Below are positions 4,567-22,709 of a DNA stretch of 22,709 nt, one piece after another. Below the pieces are notes generated by a model, which saw nothing but the letters and a program-made list of their open reading frames with translations, did not search any database and was not told the origin of the DNA. The stretch covers positions 3,300 to 26,008 of the IMG/VR virus record IMGVR_UViG_3300003410_000039. The stretch is one strand, 5' to 3'. The stretch's first letter is position 1, and each line of letters begins with the position of its first letter. The translations under genes were made by a program, and so were the position numbers. This DNA comes from a virus.

Positions 4567-7500
4567 ATGGCGAACGGACAACCTCCTTTTATTCCCGGAA
4601 TCTCAGCGGCTTCGGCCGCCCCGGCGCAAACCCCAGCTCCGGCAGTGCCCACGGGACCAACGGTTTCTCCAGCCTCGATTGCACCTAGCCCGGTAATGCC
4701 GGTGTCGCCGGTTACCATCAGCAAAGAGCAGATGGATTTCCTTAATCAACGGTTTAACGATGTTGAAGGCGGTCCTTCCCCTATTGTTGCAAAGTCTATT
4801 GTTGGAGAACTTCAACAATCTGTTCCCGACTTATTTACTTATCAAAGTTTAAAAGACGGCACCGCGCCGTTGTTTGAGGTATTGCCGCAGTTCCAAGGTA
4901 AAGAGCCAGAACAGCGGAAACTGACAGACAATCAAATTATTCGACTGCTTGCCCGTGATACTGAAGGTAACAAGATTGAAGAAGGCTCGTTCTTTGCCGG
5001 TATGGGCCGTGAGCTGTTGCCACAGGGTGCCGGTTTTGGTGGCGCTTACACTGGCGCGCGGATCGGGTACCAGTTACAACAGGCGATTCCTCCAGTAAAT
5101 CCTGCCGCCGTAGCAGTTAAGTTTGCAATCCCTGTTGCAACGACAACGATTGGATTTTTAGGCGGCTACAGTGGTGGCCGGGAAGCGACAGACTTCCTGA
5201 TCGGACCTGAAGCTCCGCTACTTCCGGGAACTACAGCGTCTTATGAAGCGGGTAAAACGGCAATGGGCGCGCTGTCTTGGATGCCGCTACCATTTTTAAT
5301 TAGCAAAAACGTGAGTTTTGGTGGCGCGCAATTGCTTGATAACATTGCGTCATTGAAAGCACTCCGCTCTCCTGTTGGTCCTCCAACAAAAGAAGCAATG
5401 CCCGGTTATCAGGCGGCGATTGCAGAGTATCAAGCAGGGCGAGAAGCACTAGGCTCTGGAGCCGAAAAGCTTTTGAACGCTGACAAGGGCCCGCGGTCCA
5501 CGCGCCTTATTCGGATAATGGAAGGACTACTGTCTCGCACCGGAGAAGGGGCTCGTGCCGCTCCCAAGTTTACTCTTGGTATTGAAGGTGTTGCCGCGGC
5601 AGGCCAGACAAAAATGGCGCAGTTGGCAGAAGAAAGTGCTCCCGGAGATGTCGGTGTTCGTATTGGTGCCGAAGTTGCGGGTGCGCTAACGCCCAGTGTT
5701 TTCGGAGCGGTTTTAGCTTCTAAGCTACCGGTTATTGGCACAGTCCTGAAGCAAACGTTCAAGAAAGGCGGTCTCAAAAAAGCGGCCGAGCCGATTCTTC
5801 AGTATCGAGAAAACCAAGTTGTCAGAAAAATCTTAGATGCCTTGGAAAACAGCGGCGAAGATGTTGATAGCTTGATCGAAACGTTGGCTGATCCCAAGTT
5901 TTTGACAGACGAAAAGGGCGATCCGATTCAGTTAACGGCGGGAGCCAAGACCGGTAGCCCGACGTTACTTGCGTTCGAGCAGGCCGCAGATCAGTTATCT
6001 GGCGGTGCGTTAGCCAAGGAACGTGTCAAGGGTGCTAACAAGGCAGTCGATGCGTACAAAGTTTTGATCTACGCCATGATGTCTACCGGCGATCAAGACG
6101 CTTTGCAACAAGCCGCTGATTTAGCTCAAGAATTTTTTGCGGCAAGTATTCAATCGCGGATTGGAAATGCAACTGACAACCTGCTGAACGCCGTTGATAC
6201 AGTCGCGGGCGATCAACCTGTTGGGAACATGGAGCTTTCCGAGCGTCTGTTTAACCTGCTAGATACGCAACTGGGCATGGCGCGTCAAAAAGAACGTCAG
6301 CTTTGGCGTGCAATTCCTGACGAAGAAATCACCGTATTTAAAGATGCTGACGGCAATGTTGTGGATTACCCCCAGTTCTTAGATCGCTGGATTAGCCTTC
6401 TGCCACAAACAGAAGAAGCGCAGTCTCCTATCCTGCGGAAGCTTTCTAACCTTAACCAATATGTTATGCGTAAGCGGAGCGAGTTTGGTTTGGACACCGA
6501 CGGTGTTGCGGCGGCCGCGCCGGATGTCGATCCATTAGCGCGTTTTAATTTTGGTAAAGAAGTTAAGCCAACAGATAAGCGTCTAGCGGGCGTTGAGTTA
6601 CCCGAGGGCTACCGTGTTTTCCAGAGGTCTGAAGAAGTTCCGGGCGTTGCAGGGAAAGTTTCGACAACATCTGTAGTAGATCCGAACGGAAACCGCGTCG
6701 ATCTTACTCGTGACCCAGAAAACAAAATATTCCCGTATCAGGCAGACTTTGTCGATGGCACTAAAGACACCATGCAAGGCAGGGATCAAGCCTCTGAATT
6801 AGTTGCGGCAAGCAATCTAGCTCAAGCGGTAGATGCTGTAGCAAAAACAATGTCTCAAGGCCGCGTGAAGTTTTCCAGAACTCCGATTGATGAAGTTGCT
6901 GACGATGTCGCCGCCGGTGCAGTGCCTACGACCGACACCCCGTCGATCACGGTTCAGGAGCTGGAAGAAATTCGTTCTTCAGCATTGAGCTTGGGCCGCG
7001 AACTGCAAGCCGCCGGTGATTTAAACGGTGCGCGTGTTGCGTTTGGCTTAGGCGAAGCAATCCTCAGAGACATGAACAACTTTGACGTGGCAACAACCTC
7101 GGCTTACCACACGGCTCGCGCATATTCCAAAGCCTTGAACGATACGTTTACTCGTGCGTTTGCCGGCGATGTGATGGATACCACCCGCAAAGGTGCCGAG
7201 CGGATTGCTCCAGAACTGTTGTCTACCAAACTGGCTGTTGGCGGTAGCGATGCAACCTACCTGCGGATTGATCAAATCCAAGGGGTTGGACGTTTCGCCA
7301 AAGAAAACGGGTTTGAAGGCGCGGAAGATGCTGTTGCCAGTATTGATGGCACCGTCTTGTCCTTGCTCCGTAATGCACGGGCCGCGGCCACCGACCCAAC
7401 GACTGGTGAAATCAACATCCGGATGTTGGACAAGTGGCGTCGGGAAAACAAACCGTTGCTCGACATCTTCCCCGGTTTGAGCCGAGATTTGGAAGATTCG

Positions 7501-8640
7501 CGTAAAGCACAGCTCCTCTTGAACGAAGAGCGATTGGCAGAAAAAGCCGCAAGCAAAGCCTTGCAGGGCCAAGTAACGTTCAAAAACTTATTGTCTGGTT
7601 ACACAGAAAACCCAACGACTGCTGTTGCGGAAGCATTAGCTAACAGCAACAAGCGTAAGTGGCCTTCCATGAACGCTTTGCTGGATGTTGCTCAAGGCCG
7701 CAACTTAGAAAGAGCGACTGGTACAGAAGGCTTTGCCCTACCAGAAGCTAAAATTGAAAGCGCCATGAACGGTCTGAAAACGTCTGTTCTTGAGTGGGGT
7801 ATGACCAAAGCAGGCGGAACTGCCGGCAGTGGCTTCAAGCCGAGCGTTGCTTACCGCGCGTTTTTTGAGCCAATAGAAGGCGAACGCACTGGCGGTAGCT
7901 TGGCGGACTGGATGGTTTCCAACAAGGTCATGCCAAAGAAAGAAGCCGACAACCTGAAAACCATGCTTCAGGAAATGATGCGCTTTGAAGTAGCTCAAGT
8001 GAATGGAACGATTGACGACATCGTAGAACAGGCCGGACCGTTACTCGACTTCTACCTGCGAGTCACAGGTTCTAACTTGGGTGCCAAGGCTTCTGGAATC
8101 TTAGGCGGTGGCGGCGGAGACCTGATCGCACGTTCGGCAGGTTCCAAGATCATGCGTCAAGCGTTTGAAGATGTGCCAGAAGCGTTCCAGATCGACGTTA
8201 TGACCAAAATGATGCAAGACCCCGAGTTCTTGGCGGCCATGCTACGTCGTGGTGTGACAGAGCGTGAAAAGCTTAATATTGCCAACCGCGCGGCAGGAAT
8301 GGTTTACGACTTCTTTGGACGTCCCACGAGACGTGTTGCACCATCTATTGGCCGCGAAACAATGGAAGAAGATGTTGAAAGACCAACTCCAGAACCACAG
8401 GCTTCGGTCCAAGCACCACAACAGAATCTGATGGCACAGCGGTTTGCTCGCTCAACGCCGACGCAGGTTCAACCACGGCCCGCGGCTCCCGCTCCAGTAC
8501 AGCCTCCGATGGCGGCACCTGCCCCACCACAAGGCGGAGCGAATCCACAGCAACGTCAGCAGTTAGCGGCGATGTTCCCGAATGATCCAATCATTCAGGC
8601 GGCCGGAGGTGGCGGCGGCATAGGAAGCTTGTTCGGATGA
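4567..8640 (+). CDS. Very large (1357 aa) probable internal/ejected virion protein
   Basis: This is the largest gene in the window. The first 50 residues are a disordered Ala/Pro-rich leader. Residues about 150-205 form a Gly/Ala-rich hydrophobic region (including AAVAVKFAIPVATTTIGFLGG) and a second such region lies around 361-396; both could enter a membrane. The middle is long and helical. The last 100 residues are Pro/Gln/Ala-rich and end in AGGGGGIGSLFG. No lysozyme or transglycosylase catalytic motif was recognised by eye. Size, position late in the virion module and membrane-like segments match ejected internal virion proteins such as T7 gp15/gp16 in general character, without demonstrable homology. 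The start at 4567 follows the previous stop by 9 bases; its stop overlaps the next start (ATGA). Confidence 0.65.
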   Translation: MANGQPPFIPGISAASAAPAQTPAPAVPTGPTVSPASIAPSPVMPVSPVTISKEQMDFLNQRFNDVEGGPSPIVAKSIVGELQQSVPDLFTYQSLKDGTAPLFEVLPQFQGKEPEQRKLTDNQIIRLLARDTEGNKIEEGSFFAGMGRELLPQGAGFGGAYTGARIGYQLQQAIPPVNPAAVAVKFAIPVATTTIGFLGGYSGGREATDFLIGPEAPLLPGTTASYEAGKTAMGALSWMPLPFLISKNVSFGGAQLLDNIASLKALRSPVGPPTKEAMPGYQAAIAEYQAGREALGSGAEKLLNADKGPRSTRLIRIMEGLLSRTGEGARAAPKFTLGIEGVAAAGQTKMAQLAEESAPGDVGVRIGAEVAGALTPSVFGAVLASKLPVIGTVLKQTFKKGGLKKAAEPILQYRENQVVRKILDALENSGEDVDSLIETLADPKFLTDEKGDPIQLTAGAKTGSPTLLAFEQAADQLSGGALAKERVKGANKAVDAYKVLIYAMMSTGDQDALQQAADLAQEFFAASIQSRIGNATDNLLNAVDTVAGDQPVGNMELSERLFNLLDTQLGMARQKERQLWRAIPDEEITVFKDADGNVVDYPQFLDRWISLLPQTEEAQSPILRKLSNLNQYVMRKRSEFGLDTDGVAAAAPDVDPLARFNFGKEVKPTDKRLAGVELPEGYRVFQRSEEVPGVAGKVSTTSVVDPNGNRVDLTRDPENKIFPYQADFVDGTKDTMQGRDQASELVAASNLAQAVDAVAKTMSQGRVKFSRTPIDEVADDVAAGAVPTTDTPSITVQELEEIRSSALSLGRELQAAGDLNGARVAFGLGEAILRDMNNFDVATTSAYHTARAYSKALNDTFTRAFAGDVMDTTRKGAERIAPELLSTKLAVGGSDATYLRIDQIQGVGRFAKENGFEGAEDAVASIDGTVLSLLRNARAAATDPTTGEINIRMLDKWRRENKPLLDIFPGLSRDLEDSRKAQLLLNEERLAEKAASKALQGQVTFKNLLSGYTENPTTAVAEALANSNKRKWPSMNALLDVAQGRNLERATGTEGFALPEAKIESAMNGLKTSVLEWGMTKAGGTAGSGFKPSVAYRAFFEPIEGERTGGSLADWMVSNKVMPKKEADNLKTMLQEMMRFEVAQVNGTIDDIVEQAGPLLDFYLRVTGSNLGAKASGILGGGGGDLIARSAGSKIMRQAFEDVPEAFQIDVMTKMMQDPEFLAAMLRRGVTEREKLNIANRAAGMVYDFFGRPTRRVAPSIGRETMEEDVERPTPEPQASVQAPQQNLMAQRFARSTPTQVQPRPAAPAPVQPPMAAPAPPQGGANPQQRQQLAAMFPNDPIIQAAGGGGGIGSLFG

Positions 8641-11275: not shown

Positions 11276-11863
11276 ATGAGCGATCTAAATGAATCAGCAG
11301 ACCTGCTGAAAATGATGGAGCAGGACACTGCCGAATCAAGCCTAGAAACGCTGAGTCAAGAGGGACTGCATACTGTTTCCTCATTGGCTATAGCGATTAA
11401 AAACAAAGAAGCGGACATCGAAGACCTTGAGAGTAAGCTCAAGAGGGAGAAGAACGCTTTACAAAAAATGACTGACGAAGACTTGCCGACCATGTTGGCC
11501 GAGCTTGGTTTGTCATCAATGACTCTGGATGACGGTTCAAACGTGACTGTAAAGCAGACGTATGGCGCATCCATCCGCATTGACGATAAGCCGCAGGCTT
11601 TCGAGTGGCTTCGTGATAACGGCTATGACGACATCATCAAGAATCAGGTGATGTGCATCTTTGGCCGTGGCGAAGATGATCAGGCATCTGCCTTCAAGGC
11701 CCTTGCATCACAGCAAGGTTTAGCGGCGGAGCAGAAGACTGATATTCACCCACAAACTTTGCGAGCCTTTATCAAGGAACGCGTAGAAAACGGTGATGAT
11801 TTCCCAATGGAGCTATTCGGCGCTTGGGTAGGACAACGTGCAGTAATCAAGAGGACTAAATAA
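11276..11863 (+). CDS. Conserved early phage protein, coiled-coil N-terminus, function unknown
   Basis: This is the first gene of the replication operon, 195 residues. Residues about 36-66 (AIAIKNKEADIEDLESKLKR and following) form a heptad-like coiled coil. After it comes a beta-like segment (SMTLDDGSNVTVKQTYGASI) and a compact domain with WLRDNGYDDIIKNQ and FGRGEDDQASAF, ending in FPMELFGAWVGQRAVIKR. The pattern recalls conserved hypothetical early proteins of marine phages. No catalytic motif is visible. It has GGAG 8 bases before the ATG and overlaps the next gene by one base (TAATG). Being first after a strong promoter, it is probably made early and in quantity. Confidence 0.75.
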   Translation: MSDLNESADLLKMMEQDTAESSLETLSQEGLHTVSSLAIAIKNKEADIEDLESKLKREKNALQKMTDEDLPTMLAELGLSSMTLDDGSNVTVKQTYGASIRIDDKPQAFEWLRDNGYDDIIKNQVMCIFGRGEDDQASAFKALASQQGLAAEQKTDIHPQTLRAFIKERVENGDDFPMELFGAWVGQRAVIKRTK

Positions 11864-12639
11864 TGGCAACATCAAAAGCAGTAGCAGAAAAGCAGTCTGG
11901 TGCAATCGCAGAGTTTGACCCAACAATGTTTGAGGCCGATGCGGGTATCGGCACACGACTGGAGCAAGAAGATCTTGCATTACCCTTCCTGAAAATCGTT
12001 TCGGCACTCGACCCATTGCTCGACGACGAAAGTTTTGAAGGACGCAAGGGCGACATCTACAACACGGTCAGCGGTACGGTATACAACGGCAAGGAAGGTA
12101 TTCGGGTCATCCCCTGTGCCTATCAGCGTCGTTTCATTCAGTGGGCTCCCCGTGGTTCGGGTAGTGGCGCGCCACAAGCGATGTACGCACCCAACGAAGA
12201 TCGTCCAAAGACGCAACGCGATGCCACTGATAACCGCGAGTATGTGGTTGGCGGGAACGGCGAGTACATCGAAGAAACGCATCAGCATTTTGTCATCGTA
12301 TTGAACGAAGACGGATCTGCTGAAACAGCCTTGCTTGCGATGAAATCAACGCAGTTGAAGAAGTCGCGTAAGTGGAACTCGATGGTAGCGTCCGCCAAGA
12401 TGGAAGGTGCAAACGGGCCGTTCACTCCGGCACGCTTTGCTTACATGTACCATCTCAAAACCCTGTCAGAAGAAAACTCAAAAGGTTCATGGCACGGTTG
12501 GGAAATGTCACGTTTAGAGCCAGTGTCTGACGGTGCTTTATACCTGCAAGCCAAGCAGTTTGCAGAGAGCATTATGGCCGGTGACGTCGTCGTTAAACAT
12601 GGGGATGATGAGGAAACTAATAACAACCCAGCGTTTTAA
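11863..12639 (+). CDS. Candidate ssDNA-binding protein (acidic C-terminal tail ending in Phe)
   Basis: This 258-residue protein has a mixed alpha/beta core with RVIPCAYQRRFIQWAPRGSGSG (residues about 81-102 region), which is positively charged and aromatic as nucleic-acid-binding surfaces often are. It ends with a flexible acidic tail, HGDDEETNNNPAF. Single-strand DNA-binding proteins such as T7 gp2.5 and bacterial SSB also end in an acidic tail with a terminal Phe that docks partner enzymes. Position just before primase, helicase and polymerase supports this, but I cannot show homology to either family. A terminator-like hairpin lies 9 bases after the stop, so its transcript may be more abundant than those of the enzymes behind it. 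Confidence 0.4.
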   Translation: MATSKAVAEKQSGAIAEFDPTMFEADAGIGTRLEQEDLALPFLKIVSALDPLLDDESFEGRKGDIYNTVSGTVYNGKEGIRVIPCAYQRRFIQWAPRGSGSGAPQAMYAPNEDRPKTQRDATDNREYVVGGNGEYIEETHQHFVIVLNEDGSAETALLAMKSTQLKKSRKWNSMVASAKMEGANGPFTPARFAYMYHLKTLSEENSKGSWHGWEMSRLEPVSDGALYLQAKQFAESIMAGDVVVKHGDDEETNNNPAF

Positions 12640-12684: not shown

Positions 12685-14217
12685 ATGTCAGTCGAAAAAT
12701 TTAGTTCCATCTTTGCAGGTTTAGAACAGGCATACGGAACTTTCAAAATAGAAAAACAGACGCAAAGCGGCAAGAACGCCGGTAAAGCGGCCGTCATTCG
12801 CGAAACGCGGACCACGGAACTATGGGAAGGTCACTTGTCAGGAACTGGCAAGGGCATCGGTATTATCCCGATCAACGAAGACAACAGTTGTGTCTGGGGC
12901 TGTATCGACATCGACCAGTACCCGCTCGACCACGCCGACCTCGTTGCGAAGATACGCCAAGCGAAACTGCCATTAGTGGTGTGCCGATCCAAGTCTGGCG
13001 GCGCGCATTGCTTCTTGTTTACGACCGAATGGATTGAAGCCAAAGTGATGCAAGGAACTTTGCAACACATCTCCACGGCTCTCGGTTACGGTAACAGCGA
13101 AATTTTTCCAAAGCAGGTGAAGCTTCATCTGGATCGGGGCGACATCGGTAACTTCCTGAACCTGCCTTACTACGACGCAGAGGACGGCCTACGCTACGCG
13201 ATTAAGGACGACGGCACTTCAGCTACTCTGGAAGAGTTTTTTGCTCTCTACGACGCGCATGTGCAGACTCCGGAGCAAATCGGCGGCTTAACGCAAGAAA
13301 CAAACAAGTCGGACATCATCGTCAAAGACGGGCCGCCGTGTTTGCAGTATCTGTGCAAAGAAAAGATTTCAGAAGGGGGACGAAACAATGGGTTATTCAA
13401 TCTGGGGGTCTACCTCCGCAAAGCGTACCCAGACGAATGGGAAAGTAAAATACTTGAGTACAATGCCCAGTATCTGGCTCCGCCCTTACCACTCAACGAA
13501 GTTAATATCGTTGCGAAACAACTTGAAAAAAAGGATTACGCTTACAAGTGCGGTGATGCGCCGATCTGCGCCCACTGCAATAAAGACCTCTGTCAAACGC
13601 GTAAATTTGGCATTGGGGCGGCAAGTCAGGGTGCGGCTATTGCAAACCTTAGAAAGTATAACTCCACACCTCCCGTCTGGTTCATGGACGTCAACGGTGA
13701 ACCGCTTGAACTCGACACAGATGCGTTATTGTCTCAAGCGACTTTCCAAAAAGCGTGTATGGAACAACTCAATTTCATGCCTCGCACCGCCTCCAAGCAA
13801 AGCTGGGAGAGTCGGATTAGCGCGCTGATGAGCGAGATGCGCGATAACGAAAGTGCCATTATGGAAGTGGCACAGGATGCATCGACCTCTGGCCAGTTCT
13901 ACGACTACCTCGAAGAGTTTTGTCGTCACCTACAGCAAGCGCAGGACAAAGAAGAAATCTTGCTCCGCCGCCCGTGGACCGACGAGGACTCCAACAAGAC
14001 CTATTTCAGACTGCGGGATTTTGAAGCGCATCTCCGCAAGAACAAGTTTTTTGAATTTAAATCACACAAGATCGCTCAACGGTTACGCGATATTAGCGGC
14101 GAAAGCACGGTGTTGAAGATCAAAGGACGTGCCGTCCGCGTGTGGTCCATACCGTCGTTTGAATCAGCGGATGTGGATTTGAAACCTAAGTTTAACCAAG
14201 AAGAGGCCCCATTCTGA
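12685..14217 (+). CDS. Archaeo-eukaryotic-type (AEP) DNA primase
   Basis: This 510-residue protein shows AEP primase motifs: hhDhD as CIDIDQYP (Asp75, Asp77, metal ligands), S-x-G-x-H-like CRSKSGGAHCFLF (Ser104, His108), and EIFPKQ followed by GNFLNLPYY (139-162), which matches the TOTE/PrimPol branch. A PriCT-like helical module follows (PPCLQYLC...GGRNNGLFNLGVYLRKAYP, about 217-249). A Cys cluster comes next (Cys289, 295, 298, 303) and could hold zinc. The C-terminal 200 residues contain no Walker motif, so unlike many phage primases it is not fused to a helicase. It would make primers for the PolA encoded downstream. GAGG lies 7 bases before the ATG; the stop overlaps the next start (TGATG). 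Confidence 0.85.
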   Translation: MSVEKFSSIFAGLEQAYGTFKIEKQTQSGKNAGKAAVIRETRTTELWEGHLSGTGKGIGIIPINEDNSCVWGCIDIDQYPLDHADLVAKIRQAKLPLVVCRSKSGGAHCFLFTTEWIEAKVMQGTLQHISTALGYGNSEIFPKQVKLHLDRGDIGNFLNLPYYDAEDGLRYAIKDDGTSATLEEFFALYDAHVQTPEQIGGLTQETNKSDIIVKDGPPCLQYLCKEKISEGGRNNGLFNLGVYLRKAYPDEWESKILEYNAQYLAPPLPLNEVNIVAKQLEKKDYAYKCGDAPICAHCNKDLCQTRKFGIGAASQGAAIANLRKYNSTPPVWFMDVNGEPLELDTDALLSQATFQKACMEQLNFMPRTASKQSWESRISALMSEMRDNESAIMEVAQDASTSGQFYDYLEEFCRHLQQAQDKEEILLRRPWTDEDSNKTYFRLRDFEAHLRKNKFFEFKSHKIAQRLRDISGESTVLKIKGRAVRVWSIPSFESADVDLKPKFNQEEAPF

Positions 14218-21704: not shown

Positions 21705-22076
21705 ATGGAAAAACGACCCACTATCGAAAGGGACTACGCCGGTTTGTTGACCGGCCAGTCCTGCTACGACTTCTGCCTCTTTGTTTCCGAAGACTATGAG
21801 ATGAAAGGCGAGCATGAACTCGCACTCGACTGGCTCGCCGAAGCCAATCTCTACAAAATGGAACTCGAACTGGGTATGAAGTCCCACAATCTAAACCCCA
21901 TGATCGAAGAAGAAATGGCCAAGGATCACGATGCGTGGCTCACGGTCACCGTCTCTTGGCAAGATCGACTCAAGCAATGGGAGATAGATCAAGAGGCTTC
22001 TTACAAGAAGAAATTGGAACGGCAGATGGAACGCGCAAAATCGGCAAAATGTGAGGAATCACAGAAAGCGGCGTAA
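21705..22076 (+). CDS. Helical 124-aa protein, unknown function
   Basis: ATG 21705 is chosen over a TTG at 21642. The protein has CYDFCLFVSEDYEMKGEHEL near the N-terminus, a tetratricopeptide-like helix pair (ALDWLAEANLYKMELELGM) and a charged helix (YKKKLERQMERAKSA) at the end. No family is recognised. AAGGA lies only one base before the ATG, which is too close for a normal site. A perfect TATAAT at 21693-21698 would place a transcript start on the ATG, but no -35 box is seen. A terminator follows 26 bases after its stop. Confidence 0.6.
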   Translation: MEKRPTIERDYAGLLTGQSCYDFCLFVSEDYEMKGEHELALDWLAEANLYKMELELGMKSHNLNPMIEEEMAKDHDAWLTVTVSWQDRLKQWEIDQEASYKKKLERQMERAKSAKCEESQKAA

Positions 22077-22313
22077 CTTTTACAGATTGTGTAACAACGG
22101 GAAAAGCTCCGGAGTCCACGGCTCACGGGGCTTTCTTGTTTTTGGTTACAAAAATTACATGTTACTTATATGGCTCAGAAATTATAAAAATATTTTTTTG
22201 AAAAAATGGCCGTAACCGGTGTAACCGTGTAACCAAATCGCTCTATCCTATATGTAGCAAGACTTTCAGAGGTTACATAAACTGTTACACCATGTAACTA
22301 CAAATATGTAACC
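22073..22313 (+). repeat. Cluster of eleven GTAAC motifs (iteron-like)
   Basis: GTAAC occurs at 22073, 22091, 22212, 22221, 22229, 22294 and 22308, and its complement GTTAC at 22145, 22161, 22272 and 22284. Eight of the eleven extend to TGTAAC, six of those or near them to GTAACC. Spacing is often 8-14 bases. One pair forms a perfect palindrome, GTTACA-CCA-TGTAAC (22284-22298). Nearby A/T-rich DNA (about 22166-22207) could melt. This is the layout of iterons at an origin or an operator cluster. The first copy overlaps the end of the upstream gene; the rest are non-coding. Confidence 0.8.
22103..22143 (+). terminator. Probable Rho-independent terminator
   Basis: AAAGCTCC (22103-22110) pairs with GGGGCTTT (22127-22134; one G-U) around a 16-base loop, followed by CTTG and five Ts (22139-22143). 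It ends the second small-gene cluster. The U-tract is interrupted, so strength is moderate. Confidence 0.65.
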
Positions 22314-22377
22314 AACAAATGAATAAATCAAAAGTGCGTTAGGCGGGGGGAGATGCAAAAAATATTTCTTTTGAATT

Positions 22378-22406
22378 TTGCTCTATATAAGAAAGAAGGC
22401 TATATT
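22378..22406 (+). promoter_or_regulatory. Candidate promoter for terminase
   Basis: TTGCTC (22378-22383), 17 bases, then TATATT (22401-22406). The -35 is weak; the region is A/T-rich, so chance matches are likely. A start near 22413 would leave a leader of about 30 bases. Confidence 0.35.
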
Positions 22407-22443: not shown

Positions 22444-22709
22444 ATGCCTAGAATTAAGAGAGATCCAGTGGCTAACAAGGCTGAACTGGATAAGTTGAGA
22501 CAACGAAAGCTCACGCGGAAGCAAGAACTGTTTGTGAAAGAACTGGTCAGCAATGACGGCCAGATCACTATGCGTGAAGCGGCGATCAATGCCGGCTACC
22601 CTCCGGCAAGCGCACATGTTCGAGCGCATGAAATGACTAACCCGCAATTTTGTCCGCATGTTGTAGCGGCAATTAAAGAATATCGGGATGAACTGGACGT
22701 TAAGTACGG
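22444..22709 (+). CDS. Terminase small subunit (3' partial)
   Basis: The frame is open to the right edge; 88 codons are visible. It reads MPRIKRDPVANKAELDKLRQ then LTRKQELFVKELVSNDGQ, MREAAINAGYPPASAHVRAH, and NPQFCPHVVAAIKEYRDELD. The order LT-x-KQ-x-xFV, AA-x-xAGY and NP-x-x-x-PHV is the pattern of the terminase small subunit, whose helix-turn-helix recognises phage DNA for packaging and hands it to the large subunit. GGAGGGG lies just before the ATG. A terminase large subunit should follow outside the window. The large non-coding region upstream might contain the packaging start site. Confidence 0.82.
   Translation, partial: MPRIKRDPVANKAELDKLRQRKLTRKQELFVKELVSNDGQITMREAAINAGYPPASAHVRAHEMTNPQFCPHVVAAIKEYRDELDVKY

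Follow-up and report, generated by a model that had tools for sequence, protein, structure and literature searches.

Why should eleven copies of GTAAC, counting both strands, be crowded into 241 bp of a viral genome, and what might read them? The sites occupy 22073-22312 within an array region (22073-22313) of the window, by which we mean the whole stretch of 22,709 nucleotides analysed here (bases 3300-26008 of the 26,008-base viral contig IMGVR_UViG_3300003410_000039, which stops within a small terminase gene). A preliminary description of this DNA read the region as iterons plus a melting region, i.e. as a replication origin, and offered as alternatives an operator for an RHH or small helix-turn-helix protein, or a packaging site beside terminase. 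Our analyses lend support to the origin reading and argue against both alternatives, and we are confident that this is an iteron array to which the phage's AEP-TOTE primase binds and that, most probably, it serves as the replication origin or its core.

The counts reported in that description, with eight of the eleven sites extending to TGTAAC and both orientations represented, are correct, and the hexamers comprise GTAACC (six), GTAACA (three) and GTAACT (two). Dinucleotide shuffles of the region (n = 5000) averaged 1.14 copies of GTAAC and never exceeded 6, and so the excess stands, while the half a copy said to be expected by chance is slightly low for a region of 36.5% G+C (the window has 50%). 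Other separate 241-bp stretches of the window contain at most about five copies, so that the motif is less dense elsewhere, and the short direct-repeat array is unique in its genome, as in an iteron-type origin; other dense GTWAC clusters were inspected in two genomes (G036 and G092), the strongest of them (G092, 44512) lying inside an open coding frame. The array region is non-coding except at its first site, where there is an overlap with the stop of the ORF upstream. This ORF (21705-22076) is swapped between otherwise near-identical phages, in which it is 26-100% identical or absent, and consequently the left edge of the array looks like a point of module exchange; the array itself is retained in close relatives whose upstream gene differs.

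The core of the array is a triple direct repeat on the forward strand, GTAACCGGTGTAACCGTGTAACC (22212-22234), whose sites lie at 22212, 22221 and 22229 and which relatives conserve more strongly than any other part of the array. The "frequent one-turn spacing" noted previously applies only loosely, with steps of 9 and 8 bp within this triple and of 10 to 54 bp elsewhere. The "perfect palindrome" at 22284-22298 is an inverted repeat with 6-bp arms that are split by CCA (GTTACA-CCA-TGTAAC). An A/T tract, AAAAATATTTTTTTG (22186-22200), adjoins the core triple and is a candidate unwinding element; a short A/T-rich tract is conserved beside the triple in relatives, another feature of iteron-type origins. 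Between the array and the terminase small subunit gene terS (22444-22709, forward strand, PHROG 51, running off the contig end) lie, on the same strand, a conserved element GCGTTAGGCGGGGGG (22336-22350; TGCGTTAAGGGGGGTC-like in most relatives) followed by a T/A tract, and a TATATAAGAAAG box (22384-22395), which most relatives also have ahead of terS, in the form CTATATA(TA). The conserved element could serve as a priming start, belong to the origin or act in packaging.

Using the polymerase and TerS as queries, we obtained 160 related loci; the nearest isolated phages by polymerase are DSL-LC04 (57%), 023Pt_psg01 (53%), HTVC023P (51%) and HTVC027P (48%). At least five GTWAC per 300 bp were present upstream of TerS in 71 of the 72 distinct TerS loci having upstream DNA, compared with none of 635 control windows, and the motif content is thus conserved among relatives. 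The array lies 230-500 bp upstream of terS in these phages, and the order of elements is constant: first a short A/T tract, then the GTAACCGGTGTAACCGTGTAACC triple with its steps of 9 and 8 bp, additional copies in either orientation across the following 100-150 bp, an element resembling TGCGTTAAGGGG, a T/A tract, a TATATA box and finally terS. HTVC023P-type pelagiphages and DSL-LC04 resemble the window phage in carrying short repeats near terS, yet the repeat sequences differ, with about five CTAGGAAAA in HTVC023P, TGGCACA in 023Pt_psg01 and GGTGCAATG in DSL-LC04 (loci L166, L165 and L164, respectively); these may be their own iterons, and DSL-LC04 has S at the position of primase residue 476. 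Arrays of GTTACC also occur at L191:7846-8124 and L177:174-443, near apparent terminase genes with 194- and 228-aa products.

A feature of these arrays that bears directly on their reader is that their sites change as a block. In some relatives every copy, or nearly every copy, is GTTACC in place of GTAACC, with unchanged flanks, and the variants that replace GTAACC across the family include GTTACC, GGTACC, GGGACC, GCAACC, GTAACA and GTAATC. Such concerted change implies a single trans-acting reader. Two phages with different arrays, L141 (GTTACC) and L152 (GTAACC), have nearly identical TerS proteins with identical helix-turn-helix regions, and RHH proteins that are identical in their DNA-binding part, from which it follows that neither protein sets the array sequence. 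Scanning viral contigs for pairs of GTTACC gave matches that were mostly chance occurrences or collagen-like coding repeats, but it also yielded the GTTACC relatives and GTTACC arrays beside VapE- or Cch-type replication genes in unrelated phages, and the latter turned attention to the primase.

When the primases are aligned, all GTAACC phages have V at window residue 476, and all GTTACC phages have L or Q. We assembled a set of 68 phages whose arrays were curated against the sequence, automatic repeat calling being unreliable (in L018, L033, L034, L038 and several others), and which leaves out L033 (no terS) and L559 and L504 (T at 476, no clear array). Within this set, base 3 of the repeat is A in 46 of 46 phages with V, S or T at residue 476, and T or G in all 22 with L or Q. 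Bases 5-6 follow residue 478 in the same manner, with K accompanying CC (62/62), R accompanying CA (5/5) and A accompanying TC (1/1). New arrays come with new residues: GGGACC and GGTACC with Q476, GTAACA with R478, GTAATC with A478 and GCAACC with S476. Column 476, of the 510 in the primase, classifies base 3 with an accuracy of 1.000, as against 0.828 for the next column and 0.844 for the best in 300 label shuffles; column 478 classifies bases 5-6 with an accuracy of 1.000, the next column reaching 0.956, and no other primase column shows a perfect association. In control proteins the best columns reached 0.79 (Pol), 0.80 (TerS), 0.78 (RHH) and 0.82 (UvrD), the range with two further proteins being 0.78-0.84. 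A sigma-4-like protein gave 0.95, which is imperfect and could be compared in only 20 phages.

On a tree built from primase residues 1-395, and therefore excluding the wing domain, base 3 and residue 476 each change 16 times, and independent pairs are concordant in 16 of 16 cases (8/8 on well-supported branches alone, p = 0.008); for residue 478 and bases 5-6, five of five independent pairs agree. In one near-isogenic pair, L313 and L321, the primases differ at 4 of 513 positions, among them M/T475 and L/V476, and the central base is switched in all five sites of the compared array. Between the primases of L338 and L307 (L307 being the phage of L152) there are 17 differences in 525 positions, L/V476 being the sole one in the wing. 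A residue-base rule fixed before the last two scans was borne out for V (GTAACC) in ten contigs, several of them close to known ones. It also held for L (GTTACC) in L568 and for V with R (GTAACA) in L578, but L568 comes from a contig that the data set included beforehand, and L578 is close to a known phage, making both weak independent tests. Its further prediction, GCAACC for S476, failed, as L486 has GTAACC, and only in the light of that failure did we settle on the grouping of V/S/T against L/Q by which the final counts were made. A distant homologue, L221, breaks the rule, having T at the 476 position yet GTTACC repeats.

These patterns bear on several other explanations for the array. Its position 130-500 bp upstream of terS is comparable to that of the lambda R sites, which lie upstream of Nu1, and would suit a cosB- or pac-like packaging site bound by the small terminase subunit; however, specificity does not follow that subunit, whether judged by L141 and L152 or by the column test, and the assemblies of four complete relatives are circles that run through the array, with ends elsewhere and no fixed end at the array, although metagenomic assemblies of this kind are compatible with a cos site. 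We consider a packaging site highly improbable, and on these comparisons TerS is a neighbour of the array by position and not its specificity partner. Binding to arrays of short repeats is common among RHH proteins, and in most relatives an RHH gene comes after the polymerase, but array specificity fails to follow this protein too, no RHH column tracking the repeats, and the sigma-4-like protein, comparable in only 20 phages, does so imperfectly; an operator array for these or another small helix-turn-helix protein is accordingly given very little credence. Near-identical proteins with different arrays, together with the column tests, led us to reject RHH, TerS and other small DNA-binding proteins as readers. 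Finally, mutation bias or homogenisation might keep the repeats alike with no protein-specific function, the correlation reflecting shared ancestry, since both traits are common to related phages and repeats can be homogenised. Against this stand the 16 independent and uniformly concordant switches, the conservation of flanking DNA while sites change, and the lack of a tracking column in the other well-sampled proteins, and this explanation, which we find barely conceivable, is refuted on present data.

The proposed array-binding protein is encoded at 12685-14217 on the forward strand, as a primase of 510 aa with an N-terminal AEP-TOTE Prim-Pol domain and a predicted C-terminal winged helix (PHROG 21866). 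Its catalytic domain matches PF22548 at 43.4 bits, above the Pfam cut-off of 27, its N-terminal part has a fold match to the CAPP Prim-Pol domain structure, and the residues D75-x-D77 and SGGAH 104-108 are invariant. Pfam detected only AEP-TOTE in this protein and no helicase domain, the helicases being separate genes. It is preceded by two adjacent genes (11276-12636) with matches to the Pam3 phage gp33-like (DUF7307) and gp34-like families; further upstream, 4567-8640 encodes a 1357-residue protein, likely a virion protein, with no PHROG match at E 0.001. The full-length AlphaFold2 model of the primase is poor (pLDDT 63), and structural statements consequently rest on the model of its C-terminal 99 residues, which are predicted to form a winged helix (pLDDT 88). 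The winged-helix domain spans residues 398-490 (13876-14154), and its wing strand beta2 (residues 473-479, ESTVLKI; 14101-14121) carries V476 (codon 14110-14112) and K478 (codon 14116-14118), which, being two positions apart in this strand of the predicted wing, should face the same side. The helix residues AQRLRD, in contrast to the variable wing residues, are invariant. Neither the primase nor the wing profile found a match when solved structures were searched by sequence.

Direct reading of the repeats by the primase wing is the only explanation we found that would account for the residue-base covariation, and direct binding of the array by this domain is, on comparative grounds, strongly supported; the binding of repeats by an element's own replication protein, a further property of iteron-type origins, is indicated here through covariation only. 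The winged helix at the primase C-terminus would read each GTWACC-like repeat via its beta-wing, residue 476 setting base 3 and accompanying changes at base 2, and residue 478 setting bases 5-6. Several primase molecules on the array would then define where replication starts. The A/T tract alongside would unwind, and the catalytic AEP domain, brought to the site, would lay down primers for the phage family A polymerase, working with the phage helicases. Origin function and this order of events are put forward with moderate confidence. We infer the former because a replication protein appears to bind a single array beside an A/T tract, because of the analogy with the known SaPI and SCCmec origins (PMC7581432), and because similar arrays sit directly downstream of initiator genes. 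Arrays of GTTACC/GGTAAC with the same 8-9 bp spacing are found in unrelated phages (L279:538-735, L224:3981-4225 and L232:1003-1190), abutting the 3' ends of replication genes of the Cch type (DUF927 + HTH_56) or the VapE type, and are likely the same kind of origin. In L279 the array begins right after the stop codon of the Cch-type gene (DUF927 plus Cch helix-turn-helix), whose product has a wing similar in sequence to that of the primase.

The primase wing might instead bind the array to some other end, such as a late or secondary site for priming or assembly, control of the terS promoter, or the coupling of replication to packaging. The array does lie just ahead of terS, with TATATA boxes in the interval, and at a distance of 8 kb from the primase gene. 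On the other hand, the arrays that directly follow replication-initiator genes in unrelated phages are of the same type and lie away from terS, and a promoter and terminator scan stayed at chance level, with one sigma-70-like match near terS against 1.3 expected. We therefore regard a non-origin role as unlikely. The GC-skew switch suggested earlier as a check is not diagnostic, speaking neither for nor against an origin at the array, as skew in four complete relatives follows the coding strand and shows no clean switch.

In the open-access literature that we searched, we found no description of this array, of the primase-repeat rule or of the origins of HTVC023P-related phages. Both a candidate origin and its putative reader have been obtained here from sequence alone, with a rule specific enough to predict much of an unseen phage's array from its primase. 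The covariation also offers natural evidence that the C-terminal winged helix of a phage primase can set origin identity, and these phages provide a case in which an origin and the protein that binds it can be followed through repeated, concerted turnover across dozens of genomes. How the specificity of a whole repeat array is switched without loss of function hence becomes a concrete question. More tentatively, and with somewhat less than even confidence, we suggest that a stand-alone AEP-TOTE primase here acts as an origin recogniser with a two-residue wing code, whose specificity changes frequently. There would have been at least 16 changes in 64 phages, each involving one or two wing substitutions and the concerted rewriting of every repeat, in abundant marine phages, as if selection kept their origins distinct from those of competitors, satellites and superinfecting relatives.

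Among known systems, the best PDB fold match of the wing domain is TcpK of plasmid pCW3 bound to oriT (5VFX; E about 0.01, TM 0.58, 10% identity), a modest match that serves as an analogy only. TcpK binds 9-nt tandem repeats in oriT by placing its beta-wing, and not its recognition helix, in the major groove (PMC6137059), and in the window primase, too, the variable specificity residues are in the wing while the AQRLRD helix is constant; TcpK is, however, a conjugation accessory protein and not a primase, and the similarity is one of fold. A parallel in origin layout is offered by SCCmec Cch2 and SaPI Rep, whose origins contain short (5-nt) direct repeats, three of them in the core, that are bound by the C-terminal domain of the initiator helicase, an associated primase priming at the origin (PMC7581432). 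The window array shares the short direct repeats, the core of three and, as proposed, a reader that is the C-terminal domain of the element's own replication protein. It differs in that this reader belongs to a stand-alone AEP-TOTE primase and not to an initiator with a detected helicase domain, that specificity varies naturally via two wing residues, and that the array is not directly downstream of the initiator gene; from the end of the primase gene at 14217 there are 8 kb to the array, which starts at 22073 and lies beside terS, an order that is similar in relatives. Finally, the PolpTN2-like plasmid primases are AEP primases that, like the window protein, end in a winged helix; a role for it in recognising the origin has been put forward speculatively (PMC5862659), and for AEP primases the idea had gone no further than a guess. 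The window primase differs in belonging to another AEP family (TOTE), in having no detected PriL-like domain, and in that covariation between wing and repeats supports recognition.
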